From positions 1 to 25,767 of IMG/VR virus record IMGVR_UViG_3300025594_000054: a DNA stretch of 25,767 bases. The stretch is one strand, 5' to 3'. Positions 9,339-24,066 of this stretch are shown here, in pieces. Numbering within the stretch: position 1 is the first letter of the stretch; every line of letters starts with the position of its first letter. The notes below the pieces were generated by a model. It was not told the DNA's origin and did not search any database. It worked only from the letters and a program-made list of their open reading frames with translations. The translations under genes were made by a program, and so were the position numbers. This DNA is from a virus.

Positions 9339-12300
9339 ATGGCAGAAACAAATCAAACCAATCCATACGCAGGAGCTGTAGAAGTAACAACAGATCCATA
9401 CGCTGGTGCTACTCCCGTAACCCAAGATCCATACGCTGGTGCTACACCGCTATCCGCGAAAGACGATAAAGAATCTTCTGGCCTTTCAGATATTACAGAT
9501 GAAGCCTACAAAATCATTGTGGGTGGTGCTAGAAATGTAGCAGCAGCAACACTTAGCAATCAAGCATTTAAAGAAAGAATATCACCAATGGTAATTGGTC
9601 AGTCAATTGGTAAGGCAATAAGAGACAAAGACTCGTCAGCCTTGAGTGCGTTAAACAGTGCGCTGAAAGAACCAAACGCATATGAAATAGCAGCCAATAA
9701 AATTGCGGCACCAGAATCAATGCGGCCAACCTCTACCTCTAATATCGGCTTCCCGGATATTAAGGTTGGTAAAAAAGAAATTCCACTTGGCTTTAAAGAT
9801 GTTCCTGTTGGCGAGTTTGCTCAAGATATTGGGCAATTTATGGTTCCTTATGGCGGCATTACAAAAGGCGTAACAAATCTATTCGGTGCTAAAAGTCTTC
9901 CAGACATAATCAAACAAGGAGCAAAAGTAATCACCGCTGGTGCGGCAGCAGAACAATTTGCTTTTTCTCCATATGAAGAAAGGCTTTCAAATGTTATACA
10001 AGAAGTTGCCCCAAATGCTGTAACAGAATTTTTGGCGGCAGATCCAGATGATAACGAAGCTGTTGCAAGATTTAAAATGGCTGTTGAGGGTGCTGGTATT
10101 TCAATCCCGGTAGAAGGTCTATTTAGATTTGCTGGTAAATTAAGAGCCAATAAAAAAGCACAAGAAATACAGCCGGTTGATGTGCCTGAAAACAAGTCGA
10201 TAGATATTCCAGACCAACTTGTAAAAACAGAAACCATAACTTCAGGCCCGTACGCTGGTGCGAATGTTGTTTCTCCGATGAGTGTTGCTGAAGCTCAAGC
10301 ACAGAAACAAGCAGAGCGATTGGCAAAGAAAAAAAATCCATTTAAAGTTGATGATGAAACTGGAATTATTACTGCAAAAATTAAAGGTAATGATGTTGCC
10401 ATTGTTAGAAATGCAGACGATAAATACGAAGCAATACTTAAAGATACAAGAACAGATCAAGAGATTAATGACGCTTTGGAAAACTTGCAAACAAACAGGG
10501 ATCTATCCCCGGTTGAAGTTCAAGAAGCAATTAAACTTTTAAAGCAAGAAAAAATAAACAGGCCAATAAAAACGTATGAGTCTTTAGGCGAAGCAAAGAT
10601 AGATATAACTAAAACTTTTGACTCTGGCGTCATGCCAAGATCTTTAAAACCAAGTGCAGAACCGAAAGTCAGAAGAGCAAAAGAATATATTGTAAGAAAT
10701 ATTAGTCCTGAATTTTACAGAAAAACAGAATTAATTAATGCTATTGGTGCTAAAAATGACAGGTTGCCGCCATGGGTTTTTCCTTATGGTGGTGATGCAA
10801 GAGTTGGTGCTGGTTGGAAAGATTTTGATTCAATTCAAGAAGCAATGGAGCAAGATGGATTTTTACCAGCAAGGGAAACTTATCAGGGAGAAGTTCTAGA
10901 TTTAGCAGATGATATTATAGATGCAATAGCAGACAATAGAATTCATCCAGAGGATCAAATATCTTACGATCAGTGGAAACAAGCAGAAGCTAGGAAGTTA
11001 GAAAAAATAGATATTTTAGAAGAGAATGGTTTTGATCCATTAAGAATGTCTGATGCTGATGTTGAACAAGCATTTAAAAAAATAAATAAAAGGGACTCGG
11101 ATATTGCTATTCAGGCAGATAGGATTGAAAAACAAAACATAGCCAGGCAACAAACCGATGAAATATATCAGCAAGAAATGGCAAGGGAAAAAAGTATATC
11201 TATGTCCCAAGAGGACCTTGCAAAAATTAAACCTATAGATGAAGTTCCATCTAGCTATACTCCAAAAGATTATGGTTTTGCTAACAGGCCGCCAAGAGTA
11301 CCACCATCAGATACACCGCCAGGAGTAAGCGTTCCTGATGATAAGTTTGCTGGCAACATTAACTTAGACAAAATTAACGAACCGAGTGAGATAATAAATA
11401 TTATTCGCAAGACTGCAAAAGACAATAGCAGTTTTGAAATAGCAAGAAGGGGTGTTGTTAAGTTTGGAACCAATGGTGAAAACTTAGAAGCGTTGGCTAG
11501 GTCTTTAAACTTATCTGATTCGACCTTATTAAAAAGAAACATTGGTCAAGCATTTAACTCTGAAGAGGTAATGGCCGCAAGAATTTTATTTGATGAAGCA
11601 TTAAAAGATGCTTTTGATTTATCTGTTATAGCCAAAGGTACAAATGCATCACAAGTTGACTTAATAAAGTTTCAACAATCTATGGCCAGGGTTGCGGCAA
11701 TTCAAGAACAAATAGCTGGCATTACTGCTGAAGCTGGTCGCGCATTAAGATCCTTTAAAGAATCAATCGGCCCTGCATCATCTAAAAATCCACAAGCCAG
11801 GGATAAATTAATTCAAGATTATCTTAATGTTAAAGGTGGTGATGCAAACATTAAAGATATTGCACAAAAAATGTCTATGCTTGATGATCCTGCGGCTATG
11901 GCAAAATTTGCAAGAGATCAATTTAAACCCAGATTTATTGATTACATACAAGAATTTTGGATCAATGCTTTGTTATCATCCCCATCAACACACCTTGTTA
12001 ATACTTTATCTAATACGCTGGTAGCTGGTTTAACGCCAATAGAATATTTTGGAGCATCTGTAATTGGTGCTATCTCCAGAAACCCCGATAGAATAACTTT
12101 TGGAGAATCTGGAGCAAGACTATTCGGAAGTATATATGGTGCTTTAGACGGCATCAGGGCGGCTAGAAAAGCCATTATAGATGGTGAAGCTATTGATCCG
12201 ATGAGTAAATTGGAACTAGATAGGCAGAAAGTTATACCTGGGCCTATAGGCTCATTAATTAGAGCTCCTGGAACGGCCCTAGTTGCTGAAGATGCTTTCT

Positions 12301-13640
12301 TTAAATCTATTGGTTATCGTCAAGAAATTTGGGGACAAGCATTTAGAACGGCTCAAAAGGAAGGAAAGGGAATTAAAAGAGCGTATGAGTTAATGCGTAA
12401 TCCAGAAAAATTAGATCCAAAGGTACACTTAGATGCGATTGATGCTGGTCGATACCAAACATTTACTACACCACTAGCGGAAGGAAAAATAGGTGCTGCT
12501 GGCCAATCATTGCAAAGGGTCATACAAAAAATACCATCTCTCAGATTTATTGTCCCTTTTGTAAGGACGCCAGTTAATATTGTTAGATATGCTTTTGAAA
12601 GATTCCCCGGAACAGCAATGTTTACAACTGCATACAAAAAAGCAATTAAACAGGGTGGCCGTCAGGCTGATTTAGCTAGATCAAAATTAGCAATAGGGTC
12701 TGCAGTTGCTGCCGGAGTTTATTATTATGCTGGAGCTGGTTTAATTACTGGCAGAGGGCCATCAGACTCTAGGCAAAGATCTGTGATGTTAGAAACTGGA
12801 TGGCAACCCTATTCAATTAAAATAGGCGATAAATATTATTCTTATAATAGATTTGAACCTATTGGTATTTTGTTTGGGCTTACTGCTGATATATCCGACA
12901 TTGGAAAATATGTAGAAAGAGGTCTTACAGAAGATGAAGAGCTTGAAATTGGACAACTAACCGCAATGGTTGCAGCATCTTTCTCAGAAAACATTACCAA
13001 TAAAACATTCTTAACTGGTTTAAGTGATGCGATCGAAATGTTAAATGATCCGGATAGGTATGGCGAAGTAACGATTAGAAAATTCTTAGCTAGTTTTGTT
13101 CCAACCGCTTTGTATTATGAAAGGAAAGCAGACGATCCTATAATAAGAGACGCTCGATCATTTGGTGACTCTTTTGTTAATCGTTTCCCAGAGGTGTTTA
13201 GTGAGCTTGGTGCAAGAACATCCAAAGATTTGCCGGCCAGAAGAAATGTATTCGGAGAAATAAAAACATATAAAGATACGCTTGGTGGTAAATATTCTCC
13301 AGTCAATGTTTCGCCAATAAAAAATGATGTAGCTTTTAATGAATTTGTAAAACTTGGATATGTGCCACCGCTAGCAAAAAGACAGATCGGAGATGTTAAG
13401 TTAACTCCGGAGCAATACGAGCAACTATTGGCAATACAGCAAGATCTAGGCCTTAGGCAGCAAATAGAAGGATTTGTTCAAACGCCTGGTTATAAAGCGG
13501 TGCTAAAATCAAAAAAAATAGAAACATTAGATAGAATGTTTAGAATAAATCAAGAAAAGGCAAGAGAAATGTTACAAGCATATTACACAGAAATAGTAAC
13601 AAAAGAAGCAGAGCAAACAGTAAAAGAGTTGTTAGAATAA
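9339..13640 (+). CDS. Giant internal virion protein (probable DNA-ejection / polyvalent protein)
   Basis: 1433 residues, the largest product. The N terminus has three tandem 11-residue units (NPYAGAVEVTT, DPYAGATPVTQ, DPYAGATPLSA), with a further GPYAGANVV near residue 305. Charged helical regions follow, then a hydrophobic stretch near 875-905 (LLSSPSTHLVNTLSNTLVAG) and another near 1118-1135 (IGSAVAAGVYYYAGAGLITG) that could insert in a membrane. The size, position and mixed hydrophobic/helical make-up match large phage internal virion or polyvalent proteins that enter the cell with DNA. I see no lysozyme or transglycosylase motif, though one could be hidden. There is no ribosome binding site before the ATG at 9339, 7 bases after the previous stop; coupled translation is likely. 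Confidence 0.7.
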   Translation: MAETNQTNPYAGAVEVTTDPYAGATPVTQDPYAGATPLSAKDDKESSGLSDITDEAYKIIVGGARNVAAATLSNQAFKERISPMVIGQSIGKAIRDKDSSALSALNSALKEPNAYEIAANKIAAPESMRPTSTSNIGFPDIKVGKKEIPLGFKDVPVGEFAQDIGQFMVPYGGITKGVTNLFGAKSLPDIIKQGAKVITAGAAAEQFAFSPYEERLSNVIQEVAPNAVTEFLAADPDDNEAVARFKMAVEGAGISIPVEGLFRFAGKLRANKKAQEIQPVDVPENKSIDIPDQLVKTETITSGPYAGANVVSPMSVAEAQAQKQAERLAKKKNPFKVDDETGIITAKIKGNDVAIVRNADDKYEAILKDTRTDQEINDALENLQTNRDLSPVEVQEAIKLLKQEKINRPIKTYESLGEAKIDITKTFDSGVMPRSLKPSAEPKVRRAKEYIVRNISPEFYRKTELINAIGAKNDRLPPWVFPYGGDARVGAGWKDFDSIQEAMEQDGFLPARETYQGEVLDLADDIIDAIADNRIHPEDQISYDQWKQAEARKLEKIDILEENGFDPLRMSDADVEQAFKKINKRDSDIAIQADRIEKQNIARQQTDEIYQQEMAREKSISMSQEDLAKIKPIDEVPSSYTPKDYGFANRPPRVPPSDTPPGVSVPDDKFAGNINLDKINEPSEIINIIRKTAKDNSSFEIARRGVVKFGTNGENLEALARSLNLSDSTLLKRNIGQAFNSEEVMAARILFDEALKDAFDLSVIAKGTNASQVDLIKFQQSMARVAAIQEQIAGITAEAGRALRSFKESIGPASSKNPQARDKLIQDYLNVKGGDANIKDIAQKMSMLDDPAAMAKFARDQFKPRFIDYIQEFWINALLSSPSTHLVNTLSNTLVAGLTPIEYFGASVIGAISRNPDRITFGESGARLFGSIYGALDGIRAARKAIIDGEAIDPMSKLELDRQKVIPGPIGSLIRAPGTALVAEDAFFKSIGYRQEIWGQAFRTAQKEGKGIKRAYELMRNPEKLDPKVHLDAIDAGRYQTFTTPLAEGKIGAAGQSLQRVIQKIPSLRFIVPFVRTPVNIVRYAFERFPGTAMFTTAYKKAIKQGGRQADLARSKLAIGSAVAAGVYYYAGAGLITGRGPSDSRQRSVMLETGWQPYSIKIGDKYYSYNRFEPIGILFGLTADISDIGKYVERGLTEDEELEIGQLTAMVAASFSENITNKTFLTGLSDAIEMLNDPDRYGEVTIRKFLASFVPTALYYERKADDPIIRDARSFGDSFVNRFPEVFSELGARTSKDLPARRNVFGEIKTYKDTLGGKYSPVNVSPIKNDVAFNEFVKLGYVPPLAKRQIGDVKLTPEQYEQLLAIQQDLGLRQQIEGFVQTPGYKAVLKSKKIETLDRMFRINQEKAREMLQAYYTEIVTKEAEQTVKELLE
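9392..9445 (+). repeat. Direct repeat in the N-terminal PYAGA region
   Basis: A 21-base exact repeat begins at 9392 and again at 9425, 33 bases (11 codons) apart, encoding DPYAGAT. A third, diverged unit precedes it at about 9360. It reflects a recent in-frame duplication in the virion protein. Confidence 0.85.
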
Positions 13641-13641
13641 A

Positions 13642-14040
13642 ATGCCCCTAGCAACAGAACGAGTTGGTCGTTTTGGTGAATACCTCACAGCTGCAATCCT
13701 ATCTCAAGTGTGCGACACAGTAGCAGTCGTACCACACAACGCATCTGCTGATATCGTCTTTGAGCACAACCTTAAACTTTACCGATGCCAGGTGAAGACA
13801 CAATCCAAAATAGAAGAAAATCGTGGTAACTGGCGGTTTGATATGCGTAAGGGCCAACGAGTCAAGCACAGGAAATACAAGGACAACGAGATAGATTTGT
13901 TTGCTTTTGTTGCTGTAACACACCGCAACGTAGTTTTTTCCTTGCCCTTAAAACAATCTCAACTAACCATCGTAGACGAGCATATGAAAAACAACGATGC
14001 CGTCAAGAATGTCTTGGAAATTTTAGAAGGTCTTAGTTAA
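13642..14040 (+). CDS. Small PD-(D/E)XK nuclease-like protein
   Basis: 132 residues. The core has GRFGEYLTAAIL (E13), SADIVFEHN (D37), then YRCQVKTQSK (Q50-V-K52), spaced as in the PD-(D/E)XK nuclease fold (E, D, [E/Q]xK). A Lys/Arg-rich stretch (RKGQRVKHRKYKDNEID) could bind DNA. The fold is used by Holliday-junction resolvases and by PDDEXK proteins linked to group I introns. Gln in place of the usual Glu is found in some active members. It begins 2 bases after the giant protein gene, and its stop codon overlaps the stop of the opposing leftward gene. It may process replicated DNA before packaging; role inferred. Confidence 0.6.
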   Translation: MPLATERVGRFGEYLTAAILSQVCDTVAVVPHNASADIVFEHNLKLYRCQVKTQSKIEENRGNWRFDMRKGQRVKHRKYKDNEIDLFAFVAVTHRNVVFSLPLKQSQLTIVDEHMKNNDAVKNVLEILEGLS

Positions 14041-14252
14041 AGACTTTCTATGTCAAAAACAACTTTCTGATCCTTGTCGTACTTCGCAGAGTTAATTCCT
14101 AACGAAAGGAAATACTCTGCTAATACACGAGGATCTTTCTTGTTTGACTTAGCAAAATCAACAAGAGAACGGGCGATGTATTTATTAATATACAAAGCAC
14201 TATTGTTATTCCTCTCATTGATGATTGGATCATCAAAGTCAGATAAGTTCAT
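14037..14252 (-). CDS. Small helical phage protein, unknown
   Basis: 71 residues from the second of two close ATGs. AGGAG (plus-strand 14260-14264) is 7 bases from the ATG at 14252 but only 1 base from the one at 14258, so the downstream ATG is preferred. The product is helical and charged (KYIARSLVDFAKSNKKDPRVLAEYFLSLGI). No family is recognised. It is the second gene of the leftward unit begun by the DUF3310 gene, whose stop codon overlaps this gene's ribosome binding site. Its end meets the rightward virion operon head-on, with overlapping stop codons. Confidence 0.7.
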   Translation of the reverse strand: MNLSDFDDPIINERNNNSALYINKYIARSLVDFAKSNKKDPRVLAEYFLSLGINSAKYDKDQKVVFDIESL

Positions 14253-14262
14253 TGCCATACTC

Positions 14263-14568
14263 CTATAAGGATTTTTTTAGCATGTCCTCTGGAATTTTAT
14301 TTCCATTACCATCAACCCCATAAACCTTTTCCAATTCTAAATCTATGTAATGCTTGGCTTTCCTGAGATCTTCAATCTTGTCATGCTTATCTCTGGTTAC
14401 AAGTTTAATTACATTACCTAAACACCACCCAATACCATTGGCCATGATGTAATCAATCGGTTCTATGTTGGTTCCCTTGTTATAATGGTCGCCACCGATT
14501 TGGTTGTTGGAAGCAAGGCTGTCAATAGCCTGATCCCAGTCCTGTGGTGTAGCTTCGTCAATAGACAT
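14263..14568 (-). CDS. DUF3310 protein, T7 gp1.7-like nucleotide kinase family
   Basis: 101 residues. The family signature is clear: IGGDHYNKG, EPIDYIMANGIGWCLGNVIK, then the helix KIEDLRKAKHYIDLELE. DUF3310 proteins include T7 gp1.7, which phosphorylates dGMP and dTMP and so supports phage dNTP supply; whether this short form is active is not shown. A good ribosome binding site (AAGGAG, 7 bases from ATG) is on the minus strand, and a perfect TATAAT box lies about 55 bases upstream. It shares the divergent control region with the recombination/replication operon. Confidence 0.88.
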   Translation of the reverse strand: MSIDEATPQDWDQAIDSLASNNQIGGDHYNKGTNIEPIDYIMANGIGWCLGNVIKLVTRDKHDKIEDLRKAKHYIDLELEKVYGVDGNGNKIPEDMLKKSL

Positions 14569-14594
14569 ATAAATACTCCTTATTTATTTAATAA

Positions 14595-14617
14595 AATATT
14601 ACCATTTTAGTAATATT
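14595..14617. promoter_or_regulatory. Perfect inverted repeat, candidate operator
   Basis: AATATTAC (14595-14602) and GTAATATT (14610-14617) are perfect 8-bp arms around a 7-base spacer. The site covers the probable -35 of the rightward promoter and the start of the leftward transcript, so one bound dimer could affect both. The nearby HTH protein (from 14655) is an obvious candidate binder; that is inference. Confidence 0.7.
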
Positions 14618-14627
14618 GATGTATTAT
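14599..14627 (+). promoter_or_regulatory. Probable rightward promoter of the recombination/replication operon
   Basis: TTACCA (14599-14604; 4 of 6 to the sigma-70 -35) is followed after 17 bases by TATTAT (14622-14627; 5 of 6 to the -10). Transcription would start near 14635, giving a short leader before the ATG at 14655. Confidence 0.55.
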
Positions 14628-14651
14628 AGGCTAAATCGGGAAAAAGGGAAA
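14623..14651 (-). promoter_or_regulatory. Probable leftward promoter for the DUF3310 unit
   Basis: The minus strand reads a perfect TATAAT at 14628-14623, with a weak -35 (TTTCCC, 14651-14646) 17 bases upstream. The -10 overlaps the rightward -10 on the other strand, so polymerase could occupy only one promoter at a time. Confidence 0.5.
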
Positions 14652-14654
14652 TTC

Positions 14655-14870
14655 ATGGAAATAAAAGATTTAAAGCAATTTGATATTAATAATACTATAG
14701 ATGCGGACGGCCTATCTAAAAGATGGGGCGTCAGCAAGAAGACTATAGATAATAGAAGATCTAAAGGACTCGGGCCAAGTTATTGGAAAATAACTGGCAC
14801 TATCTTGTACGATCTTGATGATGTCAAAAGAATAGAAGAACAATCTTATATTTCCAGCAATGCCAAGTAA
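14655..14870 (+). CDS. Small HTH DNA-binding protein (MerR/AlpA/excisionase-like)
   Basis: 71 residues. The motif ADGLSKRWGVSKKTIDNRRSKGLGPSYWKI, given here in part, is a helix-turn-helix followed by a beta wing, and it ends with LYDLDDVKRIEE, typical of the HTH_17/AlpA/excisionase group. A longer frame opens at 14616, but AGGGAA lies about 5 bases before the ATG at 14655 and 14616 lies inside the control region, so I take 14655. It is first in the rightward operon and next to the inverted repeat at 14595-14617, so an autoregulator role is likely but unproven. Overlaps the next start by 11 bases. Confidence 0.75.
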   Translation: MEIKDLKQFDINNTIDADGLSKRWGVSKKTIDNRRSKGLGPSYWKITGTILYDLDDVKRIEEQSYISSNAK

Positions 14871-15600
14871 GCACGCATTATTATCACCTTCATCCGCAGA
14901 TAAGTGGACTGCGTGTCCTGGTATGCCTAGGTTAGCGGCACAAGTTTCATACACAACAAGCATCCCGGCTGTTACTGGTACGTTGGTTCACCAGATGAGT
15001 GAGACTTTAATGAAAGGACATTTGGATGGTGATATATCTTTAGAAGATTATTGGCTTGGCAAGGTCGAGATGGTTGAAGATTTTGAAGTTGAGATAGACC
15101 AAGAGATGATTGATTGCGCTAGAACCTACACAGAGTATGTGGCGAAAAGAACAGAAGAGCTGAATGGTAAGTTATTAATCGAAGAGCAAGTATCTATGGA
15201 AGAGATCAGCGAAAACATTTGGGGTACTGCTGATGCAATCATACTGGCAGAAGGTCGTATCTGTGTAATTGATCTTAAGTCTGGTAGATGGCAGGTTGCT
15301 CCAGATCACAACAAACAGTTAATGATTTATGGCCTTGGCGCACTTACCAGGTACGGCAATGCTGAAACAATTATGGAGCTAACGATAGTTCAACCTCGGG
15401 GGGTCAAGAAAGAACGGGCAGTTAAGACATGGGAAACTACCGGTGAAAATCTTGCTAACTGGGGATACGATTTTCTGAAACCACGGGCAGATGCCTGTAT
15501 GGATGAAAACCCTGAGTATGTATTTGGGGATCACTGCAAATTCTGCAATGGACGCAGTCTTTGTGAAACTTATAAACGAAACCAAGGAGTAAAATTATGA
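14860..15600 (+). CDS. Cas4/RecB-like PD-(D/E)XK exonuclease (DUF2800)
   Basis: 246 residues. N-terminal HALLSPSSADKWTACPGMPRLA is the DUF2800 signature (only part quoted per motif). Nuclease motifs are in order: GTADAI (D125), VIDLKSG (D138, K140), and Q153-x3-Y157 (QLMIY), as in RecB/Cas4 nucleases. Four cysteines, C19 and then C226, C229, C235 (HCKFCNGRSLC), match the Fe-S cluster arrangement of Cas4 and AddB. The likely role is 5' or 3' end resection to feed the downstream Sak4-like ATPase in recombination. Its stop overlaps the next start (ATGA). Confidence 0.88.
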   Translation: MPSKHALLSPSSADKWTACPGMPRLAAQVSYTTSIPAVTGTLVHQMSETLMKGHLDGDISLEDYWLGKVEMVEDFEVEIDQEMIDCARTYTEYVAKRTEELNGKLLIEEQVSMEEISENIWGTADAIILAEGRICVIDLKSGRWQVAPDHNKQLMIYGLGALTRYGNAETIMELTIVQPRGVKKERAVKTWETTGENLANWGYDFLKPRADACMDENPEYVFGDHCKFCNGRSLCETYKRNQGVKL

Positions 15601-23407: not shown

Positions 23408-23968
23408 ATGGAAAAGAAACGACCAGGCAGAAAAAAAAAGATGCTCAACGATTCTGAGACGCTAGATAAAATAGTTGCACTCGGATCTCAAGGATTAACA
23501 TCCGGACAAATCGCAAGATGCCTCGGGGTTTCCTGGTCAACTATTGATAGAAGACGAAAGGAATTTGGGGAAATTGAGGAAGCTATAAAAAAGGGTGAGG
23601 CATTGGGAATTTCCCGGGTAGCTAATGCACTGTATGAATCAGCGACAATAGATAAGAATGTAACGGCCCAAATCTTCTACTTAAAGAACAGATCCGAGAA
23701 CTGGGCCGACCGGCAGGAAGTTGTAGCCAACTTCGACCTGGCCAACCTGCTCACGCAAGCACACGGGAGAATTTTAGCTCCGGCCTCGGACGCCTTAGAG
23801 CTTCATGAGTCAATCGATTCGGCCCGGGAGCGTACAAACGTTCACCCGGACGAACGAACGTCTCAGAACGCACCAGGTAAAGCTAGGGACGACCTTGACG
23901 ACCCGGACGGGCACACGGGCGAACGAACGGGCGAAAATCCGGACGATTTGACGGGCGGACGTGCTTGA
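23408..23968 (+). CDS. Small terminase subunit (TerS)
   Basis: 186 residues. N-terminal basic (KKRPGRKKK), then a helix-turn-helix (LTSGQIARCLGVSWSTIDRR) and the conserved TerS-like stretch ANALYESATIDKNVTAQIFY, ending LKNRSENWADRQE. TerS binds the packaging site and hands DNA to TerL. Residues about 130-186 are a polar, disordered tail with ERT/GERT repeats and a clear rise in GC. It is directly followed by TerL. A weak ribosome binding site lies before the ATG. Confidence 0.8.
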   Translation: MEKKRPGRKKKMLNDSETLDKIVALGSQGLTSGQIARCLGVSWSTIDRRRKEFGEIEEAIKKGEALGISRVANALYESATIDKNVTAQIFYLKNRSENWADRQEVVANFDLANLLTQAHGRILAPASDALELHESIDSARERTNVHPDERTSQNAPGKARDDLDDPDGHTGERTGENPDDLTGGRA

Positions 23969-24066
23969 GAGAAAAAACCGATTTGACCCCCCCGTTCGTG
24001 CGTGGTGGGCGCGTATATATATATAACTAATGAACTAAATTTTTGTTATTTTTTTAAAATTTTTTT
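23850..24066. other. Repeat-rich TerS tail and TerS-TerL spacer, candidate packaging site
   Basis: CGAACGAACG occurs at 23851-23860 and 23920-23929, and an inverted near-copy CGTTCGTGCG at 23993-24002. The 98-base spacer also has a C7 tract, then six TA steps (24014-24025) and an AT-rich stretch before TerL. Packaging sites often lie in or beside terS, so this is a candidate pac/cos region; not proven. Confidence 0.4.

Follow-up and report, generated by a model that had tools for sequence, protein, structure and literature searches.

A gap of only 86 nt separates two divergently oriented gene units in a marine phage genome. The preliminary description of this locus saw in it a self-regulated genetic switch, in which two overlapping promoters and an inverted repeat would be governed by a small HTH protein. 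The window, i.e., the whole stretch of DNA that was analyzed, consists of the 25,767 bases of the virus record IMGVR_UViG_3300025594_000054. The following genes and ribosome-binding sites surround or occupy the gap:

14037-14258, minus strand: gene of a small conserved protein, the second gene of the left unit (73 aa; no family)
14263-14568, minus strand: gene of the DUF3310 protein (101 aa; Pfam DUF3310, 1e-11)
14569-14654: divergent intergenic region between the DUF3310 gene (leftward) and the HTH gene (rightward); 86 nt, 22% GC
14576-14581, minus strand: Shine-Dalgarno sequence AAGGAG of the DUF3310 gene, read from the sequence
14646-14650, plus strand: Shine-Dalgarno-like GGGAA of the HTH gene, kept in all clades of relatives
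14655-14870, plus strand: gene of the HTH_17/excisionase-like winged-helix protein (71 aa), overlapping the start of the next gene by 11 nt
14860-15600, plus strand: gene of the DUF2800/PD-(D/E)XK exonuclease, the first enzyme of the recombination/replication operon

As proposed earlier, the first rightward gene, an ORF of 71 aa starting at 14655, encodes a small HTH protein. It is followed by the genes of the DUF2800/PD-(D/E)XK exonuclease, a Sak4-like ATPase, and a primase-helicase, and the leftward unit comprises two genes, those of the DUF3310 protein and of the 73-aa protein. The latter protein belongs to no family in Pfam, PHROGs, or PDB profiles and is conserved across all clades beside DUF3310. 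Its candidacy as a ribbon-helix-helix regulator, which came from a pattern seen by eye, was rejected, as it is unsupported by Pfam, PHROGs, PDB profiles, PF01402, and hhalign.

Many DNA-level relatives of the window are present in IMG/VR. Among 50,697 phage records there are none, and a cultured phage with the same locus was not found; cultured phages offered remote HTH matches and DUF2800 exonucleases at ≤36%, with different neighbors in the two records inspected, while the only match in cellular genomes is spurious. A near-complete relative (G001, 32.7 kb) additionally encodes a portal, a scaffold, an endolysin, and a RusA-like resolvase. As approximately 7 kb of this relative (the portal, endolysin, and scaffold region) is absent at the window ends (25599 to 119), the window constitutes a partial genome. 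T7-type polymerase (PF00940) gave no match here, and none in the control genomes either. Other parts of these genomes are variable: the 1433-aa protein encoded at 9339-13640 of the window is almost unconserved, and unrelated-looking large ORFs (1349, 791, and 646 aa) occupy the same place in relatives. The terminase small subunit gene (23408-24066) encodes a repetitive, Arg/Asp-rich C-terminal tail in a GC-rich segment (about 23770-23968) that differs in relatives, and a TATATATATA stretch is located between this gene and that of the large subunit. The relative contig G005 (L205:3003-7684, minus strand) carries genes of CsgG, CsgF, a FecR-domain protein, and a CHASE2 plus guanylate-cyclase protein near the endolysin gene, i.e., curli-secretion-like and signaling genes in a phage.

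Within the gap, the -10 boxes do overlap on opposite strands, as the preliminary description had it, and the arms of the 8-bp inverted repeat are in place at 14595-14602 (AATATTAC) and 14610-14617 (GTAATATT). The elements on which the argument turns are the following:

14595-14617, minus strand: inverted repeat, read as a putative 5'-terminal RNA stem-loop of the DUF3310 message (10 pairs including one G-U, loop of 3)
14599-14604, plus strand: rightward -35-like hexamer TTACCA, with a 17-nt spacer
14607-14618, plus strand: conserved block TTAGTAATATTG, 3 nt from the -10 7-mer; it falls in the spacer of the rightward promoter, at the leftward start, and in the 5' arm of the leader hairpin
14616, minus strand: predicted start of the leftward transcript (A), at a distance of 18 bp from that of the rightward one
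14622-14628: shared -10 7-mer TATTATA (rightward TATTAT 14622-14627, leftward TATAAT 14628-14623)
14634, plus strand: predicted rightward transcript start (A), 7 nt past the -10 hexamer
14646-14651, minus strand: weak leftward -35-like TTTCCC (3/6), coinciding with the ribosome-binding site GGGAA of the HTH gene

The sequence of the window alone proves nothing about these elements. When the 86-nt gap was shuffled 3000 times with its dinucleotides preserved, 11% of the shuffles contained an inverted repeat of 8 bp or more, 66% overlapping -10 boxes, and 7% both features, so that chance is not excluded from this sequence taken singly. Relatives are more informative. Thirty-five distinct upstream sequences from viral contigs, drawn from the matches listed (more than 200 matched), fall into five clades (T1-T5), with the window in T1, and by their comparison the block, the 7-mer, the gene order, and the hairpin are conserved. 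The DUF3310 gene is divergent in 35/35 distinct homologues, the gap measuring 77-107 nt, and in every sequence that extends into the downstream gene, the HTH gene and the start of the exonuclease gene overlap by 8-20 nt. The region preceding the HTH gene has TTAGTAATATTG and TATTATA at a constant separation of three free bases. When T1 is compared with most T2 members, the 11-nt block is identical at 11/11 positions and the 7-mer at 6/7 or 7/7, whereas fourfold-degenerate sites of the next gene are approximately 33% identical, i.e., the silent sites are saturated. Since the block and the 7-mer are conserved in spite of this saturation, the pattern is significant, unlike the single-sequence statistics. 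The clades T3, T4, and T5 keep 7-8 of the 11 block positions and the whole 7-mer, of which the first T, the second and fifth A, the sixth T, and the seventh A are invariant in all 35 sequences.

The block is also specific to this locus. When its pattern was scanned for across 2.9 million viral contigs (IMG/VR), 136 of the 137 full-context matches proved to be located directly upstream of this HTH gene; the sole full-context block without the HTH gene behind it, on a 35.7-kb contig (L375), is probably a chance occurrence. A further divergent gap in this genome (23280-23407) is devoid of any block shared between clades. As an operator or promoter element elsewhere the motif does not recur: it is present in a single copy in the window, and relatives have no second strong site. 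A chance pattern in AT-rich DNA, which the 7% of shuffles with both features could suggest, is contradicted by the cross-clade conservation and the locus specificity and is hardly credible as an explanation of the elements; on the comparative evidence, chance is refuted for the block and the 7-mer and remains only for parts of the hairpin.

The explanation that we favor, with a probability of about 0.6, is that the gap is a bidirectional sigma70-type promoter with a shared -10, that the leader of the leftward message forms a hairpin, and that the HTH protein probably binds here. A sigma70 weight matrix, which may not be that of the host, puts the top-scoring site of the gap, rightward as well as leftward, on the same 7-mer in 11/11 representatives, with individual scores that exceed those of shuffles only marginally (p about 0.01 to 0.7). 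On the rightward side, the -35 is TTACCA or a similar hexamer at a spacer of 16-18 nt (18 in most relatives), and the leftward TATAAT is a perfect consensus -10 in most clades. GGGAA was considered as a leftward -35 and rejected, since its distance to the -10 varies from 16 to 18 and it doubles as a ribosome-binding site 9-12 nt from the ATG. The reciprocal pair -11A/-7T (14623/14627) is kept in 35/35 sequences. From these patterns we infer promoter activity in both directions, with starts at A14616 (leftward) and A14634 (rightward), 18 bp apart; the leftward +1 is A (T on the plus strand) in 30/35 and the rightward +1 is A in 32/35. Transcript maps describe bidirectional promoters with a symmetric -10, reciprocal -11A/-7T, and starts mostly 18 bp apart, in which the first base is A and position -18 of the opposite strand consequently T (PMC10268837; PMC12825309). 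In E. coli, the basal use of bidirectional promoters was free of interference, and activation in one direction did interfere (PMC12825309); by analogy with this behavior, the relevance of polymerase competition at the phage locus would depend on promoter strength.

The way in which the inverted repeat varies among relatives favors its reading as an RNA hairpin at the start of the DUF3310 message over that as a protein operator. The hairpin folds at the same place in 34/35 distinct sequences, with a shuffle p ≤0.05 in most, although the sequences are related and the p-values therefore overstate their independence. It begins about 0-5 nt from the base opposite 14618, i.e., close to the predicted 5' end, and is located upstream of the ribosome-binding site. 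The only disrupted leader hairpin among the 35, that of L225, has a bulge, and the block and the -10 are kept there. The hairpin is A/U-rich and weak (-3 to -8 kcal/mol), particularly in clade T3 (p 0.16), and matches no Rfam family; when compared with AT-matched 33-mers from its own genome, it ranks within the best 1-3% in 5/6 genomes. Changes on both sides of a pair, from U-A to A-U, occur in L269, T4, and T5. In the six inner pairs, all of the one-sided changes correspond to G-U wobbles in the leftward sense (approximately five separate events) and to none in the other sense, and the two outer pairs include two cases that wobble in the opposite sense. The covariation score in the leftward sense is 0.245, compared with 0.145 ± 0.039 for shuffles (5/500 as high) and 0.138 in the opposite sense; pairing worsens when 3' arms are swapped between clades, the true pairing ranking 3/120, and in both the swap and the covariation tests the hairpin register was chosen to maximize pairing. 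Thus, compensatory and wobble changes in the transcript sense conserve the stem-loop, at moderate strength. The fixity of the right arm is not explained by pairing, and a protein site or constraints on the start region may add to it.

HTH_17 is detected in 17/17 homologues of the HTH protein (best 4.4e-7), the window protein alone being below the curated cut-off, and phrog_66 (excisionase and transcriptional regulator) likewise in 17/17. An AlphaFold model built from 17 sequences (pLDDT 77) replaced an earlier, poor model built from 8 sequences (pLDDT 67). Compared with the PDB, it has RdfS as the top Foldseek match and VIA-align Z values of 7 to 7.7 to GIsul2 excisionase, BldC, RdfS, and Xis (Pukovnik). 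By profile and predicted fold, the protein is an excisionase/BldC-type winged helix. Members of the BldC/RdfS class recognize AT-rich DNA, on which they mostly assemble as head-to-tail oligomers over direct repeats (PMC5859096; PMC11963761), and RdfS represses its own promoter (PMC11963761). Because this class often autoregulates, as RdfS does, autoregulation is a reasonable expectation here, one to which we would give by analogy slightly less than even odds. Direct repeats spaced 9-11 bp, as for BldC-like proteins, are absent from the gap; indirect readout may not need them. As the motif occurs once per genome, any role of the HTH protein at it would be local.

Several features of the gap could be accommodated by other readings. 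The two -10 boxes use the same bases, so that their conservation is inseparable and one promoter could account for most of it. If only the rightward promoter were real, the DUF3310 unit would be transcribed from elsewhere, e.g., from inside the HTH gene, where a leftward TTGACA is followed after 17 nt by GATAGT (14827-14799), and the presence of the rightward -35 and -10 next to a poor leftward -35 agrees with such an arrangement. It is, however, improbable in view of the perfect leftward TATAAT of most clades, which belongs to the best leftward gap site in every representative, of the A at the seventh 7-mer position in 35/35, and of the conserved leftward-sense hairpin that begins at the start predicted for this very promoter. 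The inverted repeat could also be a palindromic operator, as the preliminary description implied: a dimer of the HTH protein would bind both arms of the inverted repeat, covering the rightward -35 and the leftward start, and repress both transcripts. The protein is a DNA-binding winged helix, the 8-bp arms are perfect in clade T1 and in L264, the constraint on the right arm is stronger than pairing needs, and in T4 and T5 changes in the recognition helix are accompanied by changes in the right arms, although this correlation is weak. In a palindromic operator, both half-sites and their spacing should be conserved. Among relatives only the right arm is kept; the strict 8-bp repeat is lost, the left arm is not above the level of shuffled sequence in T3, T4, and T5, and the arm spacing takes values of 7, 8, 10, and 11 nt, which rotates the half-sites with respect to each other. 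Besides, the inner-arm mismatches are C/A on the plus strand, equivalent to G-U in the leftward RNA and thus of the kind that its stem tolerates, and related wHTH proteins usually bind direct repeats head-to-tail (PMC5859096; PMC11963761), not palindromes. Binding of a dimer across both arms is accordingly judged unlikely, whereas binding of a protein to the right-arm block only is quite possible.

The divergent overlapping promoters with a regulator gene on one arm had further suggested a genetic switch that chooses between two programmes (lysis/lysogeny or early/late). A two-state switch needs an opposing regulator; the left unit (DUF3310 and the small protein) holds no identified one, so the switch reading is not supported. 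Both units, moreover, look like DNA or nucleotide metabolism. Tyrosine integrase (PF00589) was found in 0/21 records, serine recombinase (PF00239) in 0/12, and HTH_3 over the cut-off in 0/15, the CI-type HTH_3 giving one weak sub-threshold match in one relative; the searched records may be incomplete, with the replication and early modules covered. The same searches provide no partner integrase, which a functional phage excisionase needs. A choice between two programmes is therefore very improbable. In several relatives the promoter block and the HTH gene stayed in place when the DUF3310 gene was exchanged or gave way to a different DUF3310 subtype (L101 vs L102 and L111; L203; L158 vs L163), with the breakpoint in the leader. 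That the block remained with the HTH side while DUF3310 alleles were swapped (L101 vs L102) is more in keeping with a shared promoter than with a co-adapted switch.

With a bidirectional promoter, host RNA polymerase would bind the shared, pseudo-symmetric -10 TATTATA either way, serving one direction at a time. The rightward message, from about 14634, would encode the HTH protein, the exonuclease, the Sak4-like ATPase, and the primase-helicase, and the leftward message, from about 14616, the DUF3310 protein and the small protein. The latter message would begin with the hairpin a few nucleotides from its 5' end, which most likely guards a short leader rich in A and U against decay that depends on the 5' end. 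The first product of its message, and coupled in translation to the exonuclease, the HTH protein probably binds the AT-rich gap and damps both transcripts.

As far as the comparison of relatives can tell, the locus is probably a conserved bidirectional promoter of a known class, whose conserved leader hairpin had been mistaken for an operator. Such an apparent operator palindrome is distinguishable from an RNA leader hairpin by changes in loop length and by strand-specific wobbles. What is known of bidirectional promoters comes from transcript maps of laboratory bacteria; in the present case, one is suggested by the comparison of uncultured viruses, and its apparent retention by selection across clades with randomized silent sites provides evidence that two-way use can be functional and not a by-product of symmetry. 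The locus could also serve as a regulatory anchor for a common, uncultured marine phage group. A rather speculative and improbable extension is that approximately 22 bp perform three conserved jobs, as the shared -10, the site of the HTH autoregulator, and the 5' arm of the hairpin in the opposing mRNA. If this were true, binding, the choice of direction, and message lifetime would be evolutionarily locked together in a widespread marine phage group.

Each of the known systems that resemble the locus differs from it in some respect. Divergent promoters and a candidate autoregulator are shared with the lambda-type cI/cro switch, but only one candidate regulator is present here, without a repressor/integrase module. 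The HTH protein resembles RdfS, BldC, and Pukovnik Xis (HTH_17) in its predicted winged-helix fold and profile matches; unlike them, it is accompanied by no integrase or attachment site, heads a recombination/replication operon, and is 13-25% identical. The soxR/soxS promoter with its MerR-family activator SoxR (PMC12825309) is likewise bidirectional, flanked on one side by the gene of a MerR-superfamily regulator, and provided with a site in the spacer. However, the spacer here is 16-18 nt, whereas MerR activators correct spacers of 19-20, and the HTH protein is without the MerR dimerization helix and sensor. A 5'-terminal stem-loop can stabilize mRNA in E. coli (ompA type; Emory, Bouvet and Belasco 1992, as listed in PMC7509114), and the phage hairpin is likewise predicted to start about 0-4 nt from the 5' end, upstream of the ribosome-binding site; in contrast to the ompA type it is A/U-rich and weak, and its stabilizing effect is conjectural. 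Bidirectional promoters whose two directions share one symmetric -10 (Warman et al. 2021, as cited in PMC10268837), the regulation of which is treated in PMC12825309, have the following in common with the locus: opposed -10 boxes overlap, -11A and -7T are reciprocal, predicted starts are 18 bp apart and consist of A, and -18T is present on both strands. The proposed phage promoter differs from those described in being located between two coding units of a phage and in its conservation, which spans divergent clades and extends to a spacer block and a leader hairpin.
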